The translations under genes and the position numbers were made by a program. Positions 8,932-13,084 of a stretch of DNA of 64,000 nt are shown in pieces (the stretch's first letter is position 1; the number at the start of each line of letters is the position of its first letter). The DNA is from Terriglobia bacterium (GTDB lineage: Bacteria; Acidobacteriota; Terriglobia; Acidiferrales; UBA7541): NCBI GenBank assembly GCA_020073705.1, contig JAIQES010000019.1, forward strand, positions 1 to 64,000, given 5' to 3'. A model generated the notes under the pieces. That model was not told the DNA's origin. It saw only the letters and a program-made list of their open reading frames with translations, and searched no databases.

Positions 8932-8978
8932 CGCGAAGATGAAGTTGGAATCACAAATTCCAGTTGGGAGGCCCCTCC

Positions 8979-9590
8979 ATGCCTGAGAAGATGGTCGTGA
9001 AGCACGGTGACGTGAATCACAGGGTCGGCGTCGAAGTGATCCGCGCTCGAGGCGTCGACGTTGAAAAACTGATCAAGATGCTTGTGGCCAACGCGGCGGC
9101 CGAGTTCGCAAGCACCTATTATTACTACACCATTCTGCGCATGAACCTTGCGGGTCACGAGGATTACAAAGAGATCTGCGAAGATGCGCGGCTCGAGGAC
9201 CGCGCGCATTGGGAATTAATCGTGCCCCGCATCTATGAGCTGGGCGGCAACTTGCCCAACGACCTTAAGGCGTTTCATGACCTGGCGGGCTGCCCCGCCG
9301 CGAAGCTGCCGGACCCGCCCACGGCCGTCAATATTCTCACGCTTCTTCTCGAATCCGAACGCTGCGCGATCCGCAGTTGGAGCGCGGTGTGTGACGTGAC
9401 TTTCGGCAAGGACCCGCGGACCTACGACATGGCTTCTCGGATCCTGAACGAGGAGATTGAACACGAGGCTTGGTTCATCGAGCTTCTGGCGCATGAACGC
9501 GACGGCAAGTCCATCCCCTCCGGCCATTTCCGCAGGGGCGAGCCGGGTGAGGCTCCATACAGCAAGAACCGTGGATTCTACAACCCGTAG
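8979..9590 (+). CDS. Dps-like ferritin-family protein (DPSL type)
   Basis: The product is a four-helix ferritin-like protein that probably oxidises and stores iron and protects against peroxide. Two helix pairs carry Glu and ExxH ligands: AAEFAS with EDRAH, and LESER with EEIEH. This fits an intrasubunit di-iron site as in bacterioferritin-like and Dps-like (DPSL) proteins rather than classical Dps. Two cysteines, at residues 105 (AGCP) and 129 (SERC), have the spacing of the paired Cys described for archaeal DPSL 'thioferritins'. The ATG at 8979 has GGGAGG eight bases upstream. A ferredoxin gene follows after 11 bases. Confidence 0.82.
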
Positions 9591-9601
9591 GATCTGGCTT
9601 C

Positions 9602-9988
9602 GTGCGGCGGATCTTGCGGCGAAACACAGCCAATGAACGGCGTCGAACGATACCAGAGTATTTTCAGGTAACGCTTAGCACCCCGTTCGGCGAGCGCGTT
9701 GTGACCGCTGGTAGAAATCAACATATCTGGGACGCGGCGCAAGCGGCCGGGATATCTCTACCCGCCATTTGCCATCAGGGGCGTTGCCTGACATGTGCAG
9801 CGCAACTGCTGGAACCCGGCGAGTTCGACGCGCGTGATGCCGAGAGCTACTTCCCCCAGGACCGTGAGGCGGGTTTCGTTCTGCTGTGCACTGCGAAGCC
9901 TTGCTCGGACCTCCGCCTTAGAACCCATGCCGAGGCTCAAATGCGCAGACACCGGCTGAAGTGCGGACTGCCCGCACCATATGCCTGA
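9602..9988 (+). CDS. [2Fe-2S] ferredoxin (plant type)
   Basis: This 128-residue protein carries a 2Fe-2S ferredoxin domain. The motif CHQGRCLTC supplies three cluster ligands in the CxxxxCxxC pattern, and LLCTAKP supplies the fourth. A basic extension of about 18 residues precedes the domain, and a 15-residue tail follows it. The start is a GTG at 9602, 11 bases after the ferritin-like gene, so the two are very probably co-transcribed. By analogy with Bfd and bacterioferritin it may deliver electrons for iron release, which is an inference from position only. Confidence 0.88.
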   Translation: MRRILRRNTANERRRTIPEYFQVTLSTPFGERVVTAGRNQHIWDAAQAAGISLPAICHQGRCLTCAAQLLEPGEFDARDAESYFPQDREAGFVLLCTAKPCSDLRLRTHAEAQMRRHRLKCGLPAPYA

Positions 9989-10553: not shown

Positions 10554-10756
10554 GTGTTTATTTTAGCCTGAAGGCATACGAGAGAAGAAGTTGCTGTAAT
10601 GTTCTCGATAATATTGGTCCGTCCGGCGAATCATCAGCTAAGTGCTCCCATAAAGTAGCGGTTGTTGCCTGATTTGACCAGCACCAAGGCAAATTTCGGG
10701 GCCGCGAATTCTACTTGACTGCAGCACTATTCGGGTGTCAGCTACGCTCATCAGTG

Positions 10757-10774
10757 AGTGAGCGTCTGCTCACT
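10757..10774. promoter_or_regulatory. Palindromic operator candidate
   Basis: AGTGAGC (10757-10763) and GCTCACT (10768-10774) form a perfect 7-base inverted repeat around GTCT, just before the ribosome site (GAGGAG) of the flavoprotein gene at 10790. The geometry suits a dimeric repressor such as a TetR-family protein, or a short RNA hairpin in the leader. No regulator gene is adjacent. Confidence 0.45.
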
Positions 10775-10789
10775 TGAGGAGAAAAGTCC

Positions 10790-12472
10790 ATGACTCCAAT
10801 CACGCGACGCGAATTCGTAAAAGGCGTGGCACTGACACCTCTGGGCCTCACTTCCGTCGGCACTATGGCACAGCAAACAGCGCAGGCGTCCGGCGATCGT
10901 TTCGATATTGTGGTCGCTGGTGCCGGACACAACAGCCTCGTTACCGCCGCGTACCTGGCCAAGGCGGGCTACAAGGTCCTCGTCCTGGAGGGCCGGCCTG
11001 TCGTCGGCGGAGGCGCCGAAACAACGTCCGCAACGATGGTCGGGTTCAAAGATGATCTCTGCTCTACGGGCCATACCGGGATTCAAAACAACCCGATGTT
11101 AAACGAACTCAAACTACGGGATTATGGACTTGAGTATCTCTTTCCTGATCCGTTTTTCCATATGCCGTTTGCCGACGGCAGCTCTTTCACGATGTGGCGC
11201 AATCTGGATCGCACAGCCGCAGAATTCGGCAAGTTTTCGAAAAAGGATGAGGCCGCTTTCCGGCGCATTTACGCGGAGTATCAGACAATTGGGCCAGCAT
11301 TGGAAGCGAACCAATTCCTGCCAGTTGGCTGGGGAAAGCCGATGAATGAGCTCATGGCCGGTATTCCCCGTTTGGGTTTGTGGCAGCGCCGCATGGCGAT
11401 GTCCGCTTGGGACAACATTTGCGATAACTACGAGGACGAGCACAACCGAAATTTTCTGGTAACCCTTGCTCTGCTCGGGCCTCTGACGGATCCGATCTAT
11501 CCGGGGACCGGAATGTCGGCCTTCGGGACCGCCGCTCTGCTGAAGTGGGGCCGCCCATGCGCAAAAGGCGGCGCCGGGCAACTGACGCAGGCACTGGCGC
11601 GATTCATCGAGGCGCATAACGGCGTGATCGAGGTCAACAAACCCGTGACGCGGCTAATCATTGAAAACGGCAAGTGCACGGGAGTGGAATGCGCTGACGG
11701 CAGCACTTTTCACGCTGACAAAGCGGTGCTCTCGACCATCCACATCAAGCAGTTGGTGAACATGGCGCCGCGCGAGTTGTGGGGCCAGGGCTTCATGGAT
11801 GGTGTAGATACGTGGAAGGAAGAACAAGGCTCCATCTTCGCCGGAAATTACGCTTTGAAGGAGGCTCCGCAGTATGGAGGGCCACATTCGGCGCCCGCAG
11901 TCATGATTTCGCCAAACCCGACACGCGTTTTGCTAAACGGCTACGACATAGGCGTCGGAAATGCCAATTTCGACGAGCCGCCGATGCTAGCGGAATGCTT
12001 GACGGTGATCGACCCCTCGCGCGCACCGGCGGGGATGCACACGCTCAAGCTCATGAGCTGCCAACCATACAGTTTGAAAGAAGGGCCCGAACACTGGGAC
12101 AAGATCAAGAAGCAGGTTGCCGATGCACAACTGAAGTACCTGCGGCGCTTCGCACCCAATCTGACCGATGACAAGATCCTCGGGGAGTTCATCCAGACGC
12201 CGCTAGATATCGAGCGCATGAATCCTGCGTTCTGGCACGGCAGCGTTCATGCCGGGGCCGGTGGCGCCTCTCAGTCTGGAGCAATGCGTCCGGTACCCGG
12301 CTGGGCGCAATATCGCATGCCGATACACGGCCTGTATCAAACCGGCGCCTGCACGTACCCAGGAGGTTCGATATCAGGAGCGCCGGGGCGGAATGCAGCG
12401 ATGGTGATGCTCAAGGATTTTGGCACCAGCATCGAGCAGGTGGTGGACAAGACCGAAAGCAAGAAAACGTAA
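10790..12472 (+). CDS. Tat-exported phytoene-desaturase-like FAD oxidoreductase
   Basis: The 560-residue protein starts with a twin-arginine signal (TRREFVKG followed by a moderately hydrophobic stretch and AQAS), so it should be exported folded with its FAD. The Rossmann motif is DIVVAGAGHNSLVTAAYLAKAG (split around residue 41), followed by LEGRPVVGGGAET. The C-terminus has the family ending YQTGACTYPGGSISGAPGRNAA. The family (NAD(P)/FAD oxidoreductases related to CrtI and animal PYROXD2) acts on varied lipophilic substrates; the substrate here is unknown. A five-haem cytochrome c gene follows after 36 bases, suggesting that electrons leave to cytochrome rather than oxygen. Confidence 0.85.
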   Translation: MTPITRREFVKGVALTPLGLTSVGTMAQQTAQASGDRFDIVVAGAGHNSLVTAAYLAKAGYKVLVLEGRPVVGGGAETTSATMVGFKDDLCSTGHTGIQNNPMLNELKLRDYGLEYLFPDPFFHMPFADGSSFTMWRNLDRTAAEFGKFSKKDEAAFRRIYAEYQTIGPALEANQFLPVGWGKPMNELMAGIPRLGLWQRRMAMSAWDNICDNYEDEHNRNFLVTLALLGPLTDPIYPGTGMSAFGTAALLKWGRPCAKGGAGQLTQALARFIEAHNGVIEVNKPVTRLIIENGKCTGVECADGSTFHADKAVLSTIHIKQLVNMAPRELWGQGFMDGVDTWKEEQGSIFAGNYALKEAPQYGGPHSAPAVMISPNPTRVLLNGYDIGVGNANFDEPPMLAECLTVIDPSRAPAGMHTLKLMSCQPYSLKEGPEHWDKIKKQVADAQLKYLRRFAPNLTDDKILGEFIQTPLDIERMNPAFWHGSVHAGAGGASQSGAMRPVPGWAQYRMPIHGLYQTGACTYPGGSISGAPGRNAAMVMLKDFGTSIEQVVDKTESKKT

Positions 12473-12508
12473 GTGGAATAGGGCAGCCTTGCGTCAGGTC
12501 TGGACGGA

Positions 12509-13084
12509 ATGGGAGATATGTTGACGACGAGAAGAAAAGAGGTCCTCGCTGCGGTCGTGGTCGGGCCAATGCTGGCGGCAGTCTTCCTCATCGCGTTTGG
12601 CGTATCGGCACAGTCACAAGGTGTCCAGCAACAGGAGGTGCCGAATAACCCAGCGGTTCCCGCACCGCCCGTACAGCCGATCCCTTATAGCCACAAGACA
12701 CATTTGGCCAACGGCCTGGAATGCCAGACGTGCCACACAAATCCGGAGCCCGGCGCCCTGATGACGTTCCCGGCTGCGAGCACATGCATGGCCTGCCACA
12801 ACACGGTTGCCAAGGACAAGCCTGCCGTCGTGAAGCTTGCAGAGTTTGCCCAATCACAACAACCCATCTCCTGGGTACGCGTTTACAGCGTGCTGCCCGG
12901 CGTGCAATGGAGCCACCGCAAACACATACAAGCCGGCATGAAGTGTGAGACCTGCCACGGGCCAGTTGCAGAAATGGACGCAATGGCAATGGTCACCAGC
13001 GTCACAGCTATGGGAACGTGCATTAATTGTCATCAGATGAAAAACGCAAAAACCGTCTGTAACACGTGTCATCTGTGGCCATAG
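12509..13084 (+). CDS. Membrane-anchored five-haem cytochrome c (c3/c7-like)
   Basis: After an N-terminal transmembrane anchor (EVLAAVVVGPMLAAVFLIAF) and a Pro-rich linker, the 191-residue protein has five CxxCH haem sites: CQTCH, CMACH, CETCH, CINCH and CNTCH. His residues in YSHKTH and WSHRKH stand where cytochromes of the c3/c7 family place distal ligands. It should sit on the periplasmic face of the membrane and shuttle electrons. An alternative ATG lies at 12518. It follows the flavoprotein gene closely and probably accepts its electrons (inference). A gap of 267 bases separates it from trpC. Confidence 0.88.
   Translation: MGDMLTTRRKEVLAAVVVGPMLAAVFLIAFGVSAQSQGVQQQEVPNNPAVPAPPVQPIPYSHKTHLANGLECQTCHTNPEPGALMTFPAASTCMACHNTVAKDKPAVVKLAEFAQSQQPISWVRVYSVLPGVQWSHRKHIQAGMKCETCHGPVAEMDAMAMVTSVTAMGTCINCHQMKNAKTVCNTCHLWP

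Follow-up and report, generated by a model that had tools for sequence, protein, structure and literature searches.

What reaction would be carried out by a flavoprotein of the phytoene desaturase type that carries a twin-arginine (Tat) leader, and where would its electrons go, when the next gene encodes a five-haem cytochrome c? This question is raised by a gene pair in a 64,000-nt stretch of a contig from a soil Terriglobia bacterium (here, the window). CRTI is a membrane-peripheral enzyme that uses O2 or quinones (PMC3382138), in agreement with the original prediction, which described CrtI-like enzymes as usually cytoplasmic or membrane-bound proteins that hand electrons to oxygen or quinone. 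The pair in the window probably encodes a different arrangement, i.e., a periplasmic cytochrome-c-linked flavin dehydrogenase and its five-haem cytochrome.

Organization of the gene pair

The flavoprotein gene (ATG start, by ORF reading) and the cytochrome gene are separated by 36 nt (Table 1). These two genes (one for a phytoene-desaturase/PYROXD2-like FAD enzyme with a twin-arginine signal and, 36 bases downstream, a cytochrome gene with five CxxCH sites), as well as a perfect 7-base inverted repeat by the ribosome site, had been named in the original prediction, and all three were confirmed at the stated positions. The pair is followed by trpC-, trpF-, trpB-, and trpA-like genes (named by sequence) and is preceded by ferritin-like and 2Fe-2S genes and then a gap of ~500 nt; the ferritin-like gene and, after it, the 2Fe-2S ferredoxin-type gene occupy positions 8964–9988 of the window. 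Promoter and terminator scans gave no signal above chance.

Table 1. Features of the flavoprotein–cytochrome locus (window positions).
Feature	Position	Strand	Basis
Perfect 7-bp inverted repeat AGTGAGC-GTCT-GCTCACT (putative element)	10757..10774	+	Sequence; not conserved
Probable ribosome-binding site GAGGAGA	10776..10782	+	Sequence
Tat-exported (predicted) CrtI/CrtO-like FAD oxidoreductase, 560 aa	10790..12472	+	Pfam, NCBIfam, and PDB matches
Tat signal region, TRREFVK and hydrophobic stretch	10790..10885	+	Sequence; motif in 35/38 homologues
ActA-like pentahaem cytochrome c, 191 aa	12509..13084	+	PDB matches, QrcA and c7 models, CxxCH count
Five haem-binding motifs of the cytochrome	12722..13072	+	Conservation over 26 paired cytochromes

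The flavoprotein and its predicted export

The flavoprotein starts with a standard twin-arginine leader (MTPITRREFVKG); its N-terminus (MTPITRREFVKGVALTPLGL) contains the Tat motif TRREFVK, its FAD motif is VVAGAGHNSLVTAAYLAKAGYKVLVLEGRP, and its C-terminal motif is GGSISGAPGRNAA. The Tat pattern [ST]RR.F[VI] was present in 35 of 38 flavoprotein homologues. The best Pfam match was Amino_oxidase (5.2e-16, above the gathering score), with DAO also matched, while the NCBIfam models CrtO (3e-76) and crtI_fam (4.6e-27) matched without reaching their curated cut-offs (257 of 1000 bits and 95 of 238 bits, respectively). Phytoene dehydrogenase (4dgk, 4.5e-15) was the best PDB match, and NicA2 or Pnao chains were absent among the PDB matches at 1e-3; FAD_binding_2 matched weakly (2.1e-5) and over the Rossmann motif only (residues 39–79). 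An AlphaFold2 model built from a six-row alignment had a pLDDT of 37 and did not confirm the fold. The protein shares the FAD motif GAGHN, the C-terminal GG...GAPGRNAA, and the overall profile match with CrtI/CrtO/PYROXD2-like proteins, but differs from these in having a Tat leader and a cytochrome partner and in scoring far under the curated cut-offs. Three flavoprotein copies without a Tat leader (L100:4379-5971, L101:4375-5970, and L089:13144-14748) are located directly 5′ of Tat-bearing copies or of a cytochrome gene; these copies may be cytoplasmic or may be exported as hitchhikers within a heterodimer.

Conservation of the pairing

The genome that contains the window (3.79 Mb, 97% complete) encodes seven flavoprotein copies, i.e., the window copy on contig C44 and six paralogues, which comprise a tandem pair on C25, a tandem array of three on C56, and a single copy on C57. 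Three adjacent pairs are present in this genome: the window pair, one at the 3′ end of the C56 array, and one on C57, with the cytochrome gene coming directly after the flavoprotein gene in both of the latter. Of the 24 close cytochrome homologues in 61 relatives, 23 adjoin a flavoprotein homologue, the lone exception being an orphan cytochrome (G021:C151); high-identity homologues of the two proteins are found in the same lineages of these relatives and are set apart by an identity gap (flavoprotein, at least 50% versus at most 36% for the next; cytochrome, at least 53% versus at most 44%). Counted from the flavoprotein side, by manual reading of the locus outputs (n = 38), 26 copies are directly 5′ of a cytochrome gene, and another five share a tandem array with such a copy; of the other seven, six have no adjacent cytochrome gene and one ends at a contig edge. 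The unpaired copies are full length and have flanking sequence present (two each in L071 and L075, one each in L085 and L097). The adjacency of the two genes is far beyond chance. Pairwise distances of the two partners also correlate (r = 0.64; best permuted value 0.32 in 5000 permutations), a correlation to which shared inheritance contributes.

Across 396 genomes sampled from the phylum, the pair is rare but is present in a distant family (in G429, and also in G451, a relative of G429). Three named Acidobacteria gp2 MAGs have it as well, and a contig scan of genomes with a single protein query returned close gp2 relatives only. A lack of conserved co-occurrence had been named at the outset as evidence against the pairing; co-occurrence was found in the 23 of 24 cases above, in two distant families, and among paralogues. 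In a plasmid search, which covered the sequences searched outside the phylum, the best flavoprotein match (~36%) was to Novosphingobium plasmids; on pNL2, the plasmid whose neighbourhood was read, the match started after the Tat region and no annotated cytochrome was present. These plasmid-borne relatives are located near VOC-family or extradiol dioxygenase genes, hydrolase genes, and SDR genes. Tandem flavoprotein pairs with no cytochrome gene nearby were observed in G000:C25 and G001:C100, where the neighbours are LVIVD/FrsA-like or FrsA-like and TonB-type; the electron acceptor of these tandem copies may be O2 or a cytochrome encoded at another locus.

The cytochrome and its relationship to ActA

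The window cytochrome has an N-terminal hydrophobic stretch and exactly five CxxCH sites (CQTCH, 12722-12736; CMACH, 12785-12799; CETCH, 12944-12958; CINCH, 13019-13033; CNTCH, 13058-13072). Its best PDB matches were ActA of alternative complex III (8k9e, 2.6e-25; 6f0k, 2.3e-23; 6btm; 6lod), and its NCBIfam matches were to QrcA and c7 models; by these matches, it is assigned to the ActA family (i.e., the pentahaem subunit of alternative complex III, ACIII). Exactly five CxxCH sites were found in 26 of 26 paired cytochromes examined, in which H62, H65, H136, H139, and several methionines, including M159 and M168, are also invariant; the invariant His and Met residues can be putative distal haem ligands. 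In ActA, four haems have bis-His ligation and one has His/Met ligation, and the N-terminal helix is an anchor (PMC5928083); the conserved extra His and Met residues of the paired cytochromes equal the ActA ligand count. The hydrophobic stretch of the window cytochrome could be a membrane anchor, as in ActA, or a Sec signal that would be cleaved between ...GVSA and QSQ.

The likeness to ActA (and to QrcA) includes the five CxxCH sites (four within the aligned core), the N-terminal hydrophobic stretch, and the four extra conserved His residues and Met. Unlike the ActA gene, however, the window cytochrome gene is not accompanied by ActB–ActF genes; it is flanked by the flavoprotein gene, its partner, and the trpC-like gene. 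A separate ActA-like gene is located on contig C21 of the same genome, where it adjoins a gene for a 1013-aa iron-sulfur protein resembling ActB; a haem-copper oxidase subunit I gene is also found on C21.

Related cytochromes beside other dehydrogenases

The genes for the next-closest cytochromes (~40–50% identity, five CxxCH) directly follow a GMC oxidoreductase gene at seven loci, and at several of these a Gluconate_2-dh3 (PF13618) gene is found upstream; at one further locus (L116), such a cytochrome gene is clustered with that of a PQQ dehydrogenase of the glucose/quinate/shikimate family. In a tree with midpoint rooting, the 26 CrtI-paired cytochromes formed one group (support 99/94), and a larger supported group added the GMC-paired and PQQ-cluster cytochromes and left out the C21 ActA. 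This cytochrome group is therefore repeatedly tied to extracytoplasmic dehydrogenases of different catalytic families. The GMC/gluconate 2-dehydrogenase subunit 3/cytochrome units of Acidobacteriota resemble the window pair in having a cytochrome of the same pentahaem family directly downstream of an FAD dehydrogenase; however, their FAD catalytic family is different, and several contain the PF13618 subunit, which is missing from the CrtI-like pair. We give about equal weight to both sides of a broader reading, in which an ActA-type pentahaem cytochrome, independent of ACIII, would be a general electron-collecting module for unrelated periplasmic dehydrogenases (CrtI-like FAD, GMC-FAD, PQQ, and possibly molybdenum hydroxylases) in Acidobacteriota, with the CrtI-like branch representing multi-copy, respiratory-chain-linked dehydrogenases for non-carotenoid substrates.

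The GMC loci (L117, L119–L123, and L125) have the gene order GMC oxidoreductase, then ActA-like five-haem cytochrome, and it is possible that they encode an Acidobacteriota-type sugar dehydrogenase complex; no literature joining glucoside 3-dehydrogenase, GMC, and cytochrome c was found. The PQQ cluster (L116:3118-11968) contains genes for a PQQ dehydrogenase, a type II dehydroquinase with a leader-like N-terminus, ThuA, the pentahaem cytochrome, a shikimate-dehydrogenase-like protein, a tannase, and a GH3 protein, and looks like a cluster for extracytoplasmic quinate or gallate-ester degradation.

Gene contexts and substrate class

Several contexts of the flavoprotein genes in relatives include genes for the breakdown of organic compounds. 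In L094, genes for an aldehyde dehydrogenase, a HIBADH-like protein, the E1 and E2 components of a 2-oxoacid dehydrogenase, and an M24 peptidase are followed by those for the flavoprotein, the cytochrome, a 2Fe-2S protein, and a molybdenum hydroxylase; the E1/M24/E2 part of this context recurs in L102. An SDF dicarboxylate symporter gene precedes the flavoprotein gene in L087 and L091, with a similar protein end upstream in L100 and L101, and a TetR gene precedes the flavoprotein and cytochrome genes in L086 and L090. Other loci of relatives contain genes for exported DUF4440 proteins, alpha/beta-hydrolases, a CMD-like protein, and TonB-type outer-membrane proteins. Judged by gene content, these contexts are catabolic and directed at small organic compounds, and they do not point to carotenoids; nor do they lend support to the lipophilic substrate suggested as a possibility in the original prediction. 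As a single genome encodes seven of these flavoproteins, the copies may act on several related substrates, each within a separate catabolic context. Family 9 of the neighbour clustering was rejected, as it represents an ORF antisense to the cytochrome gene.

Proposed electron route and alternative explanations

In the route that we infer, the flavoprotein would fold with FAD in the cytoplasm and would then be exported through Tat, for which the motif is present. A small organic substrate from soil would be oxidised by hydride transfer to FAD; the co-encoded five-haem cytochrome, presumably in complex with the flavoprotein, would reoxidise the reduced FAD and relay electrons along its haem row, from where they may pass to ACIII, a soluble cytochrome, or a haem-copper oxidase. 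The genome contains both an ActA-ActB locus and a haem-copper oxidase gene. Electron flow from substrate to flavin to haem is most strongly favoured by the recurrence of the cytochrome group beside different dehydrogenase families. The original prediction of a periplasmic dehydrogenase wired to a cytochrome is supported as regards an extracytoplasmic flavoprotein with a functional tie to the cytochrome, given the conserved adjacency and the GMC and PQQ relatives, but not as regards the lipophilic substrate and the repressor. Observations that count against the proposed dehydrogenase include the six unpaired flavoproteins, the orphan cytochrome, the three Tat-less copies, and the possibility that the correlation of partner distances reflects shared inheritance; in addition, c7/ActA-type cytochromes also serve reductive paths (e.g., QrcA and Cgr1).

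Electrons might instead flow in reverse, with the cytochrome passing electrons from the quinol pool to a flavoprotein that reduces an unsaturated compound, an explanation that we consider unlikely. CrtI-like retinol saturases are models for such a reaction. Further models are Cgr1/Cgr2 digoxin reduction and fumarate/urocanate-type respiratory reductases, and sets of reductases would fit both multihaem c3/c7 cytochromes and an expansion of paralogues; Cgr2 is Tat-predicted and co-transcribed with Cgr1, a membrane cytochrome of the c3 superfamily (PMC5953540). However, the flavoprotein, a protein of the CrtI/amine-oxidase class, resembles FAD_binding_2 proteins only weakly, the closest relatives of the cytochrome flank GMC and PQQ dehydrogenases, and catabolic neighbours and genome-encoded haem-copper oxidases also argue for oxidation. 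Somewhat less likely still is a periplasmic oxidase, i.e., a flavoprotein that uses O2, beside a cytochrome with a separate function in the operon, such as serving a neighbouring molybdenum hydroxylase. Molybdenum hydroxylase genes are indeed found near the pair in several loci, several flavoprotein paralogues have no adjacent cytochrome gene, Tat flavoproteins without an adjacent cytochrome are mostly fast users of O2 (PMC12224317), and CRTI itself accepts O2 or quinones; the adjacency seen from the cytochrome side, which includes loci without a molybdenum hydroxylase such as the window, and the pairing of cytochrome relatives with other dehydrogenases nevertheless favour a cytochrome-linked enzyme. 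An exported carotenoid or apocarotenoid desaturase or ketolase acting on envelope carotenoids, as might be read from CrtO being the best named model and phytoene dehydrogenase the best structure, is very improbable, given the scores far below the CrtO and crtI_fam cut-offs, the lack of carotenoid genes among the neighbours examined, the seven paralogues in one genome, and the varied catabolic contexts of relatives.

Relation to known systems

A cytochrome-linked dehydrogenase of the kind favoured here has precedents. NicA2 and Pnao of Pseudomonas putida S16, which are Tat flavoproteins of the amine-oxidase fold, have been shown to work as dehydrogenases, with CycN, a co-encoded cytochrome c, as their electron acceptor, and a Tat flavoprotein with an adjacent cytochrome c predicts a cytochrome-using dehydrogenase (PMC9396064, PMC12224317); more than 100 such Tat-flavoprotein/cytochrome pairs have been predicted (PMC12224317). 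The window pair resembles NicA2/Pnao/CycN in combining a Tat FAD protein of the broad amine-oxidase fold (PF01593 matched) with a co-encoded exported cytochrome c, and in its exported-dehydrogenase logic. However, its flavoprotein belongs to the CrtI/CrtO branch, and its cytochrome is of the five-haem ActA type, while CycN is a one-electron acceptor; judging from homology, the pair does not appear to be a member of the NicA2/Pnao family. Cgr1/Cgr2 of Eggerthella lenta also represents an operon of a Tat-predicted flavoprotein and a membrane multihaem cytochrome, but Cgr2 is a fumarate-reductase-type flavoprotein with a [4Fe-4S] cluster and is a reductase.

No open-access literature joining phytoene-desaturase-like proteins, Tat, and cytochrome c was found. 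The exact flavoprotein–cytochrome pairing thus appears to be undescribed, while the principle is known from nicotine-degrading bacteria; the original prediction, which knew of no described system, holds for the exact pair in the open-access literature, but close functional precedents exist (NicA2/Pnao/CycN and the predicted pairs mentioned above). If the proposed function is correct, this Tat-exported, multi-copy, CrtI-like branch would be a new point at which electrons enter respiration in the poorly cultured Acidobacteria of soils, the use of "oxidase" flavoproteins as cytochrome-using dehydrogenases would extend to another branch of the fold, and an ActA-type respiratory subunit would serve several catalytic partners.

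The upstream inverted repeat

The palindrome in the window sits directly 5′ of GAGGAG and the ATG. When 40-nt segments are drawn at random from these genomes, ~2.6% contain an inverted repeat with arms of at least 7 bp and a spacer of at most 12, and the repeat alone is therefore weak evidence. No second match was found in the same genome at zero or one mismatch, and at up to two mismatches, seven sites were found versus 10 for a control pattern. None of the upstream regions of 35 other flavoprotein genes contained the palindrome; inverted repeats were few in these regions and had other sequences. No regulator gene is next to the pair in the window, and a TetR gene beside the pair was seen only in L086 and L090. 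The repressor-operator function originally proposed for this palindrome is not supported, as the repeat is not conserved, is no commoner than the control pattern, and has no adjacent regulator gene in the window. A second, overlapping inverted repeat (ACGCTCA-N8-TGAGCGT; the two repeats together span 10744-10774 of the window) shares an arm region with the palindrome; these overlapping repeats make two alternative hairpins near the ribosome site possible.
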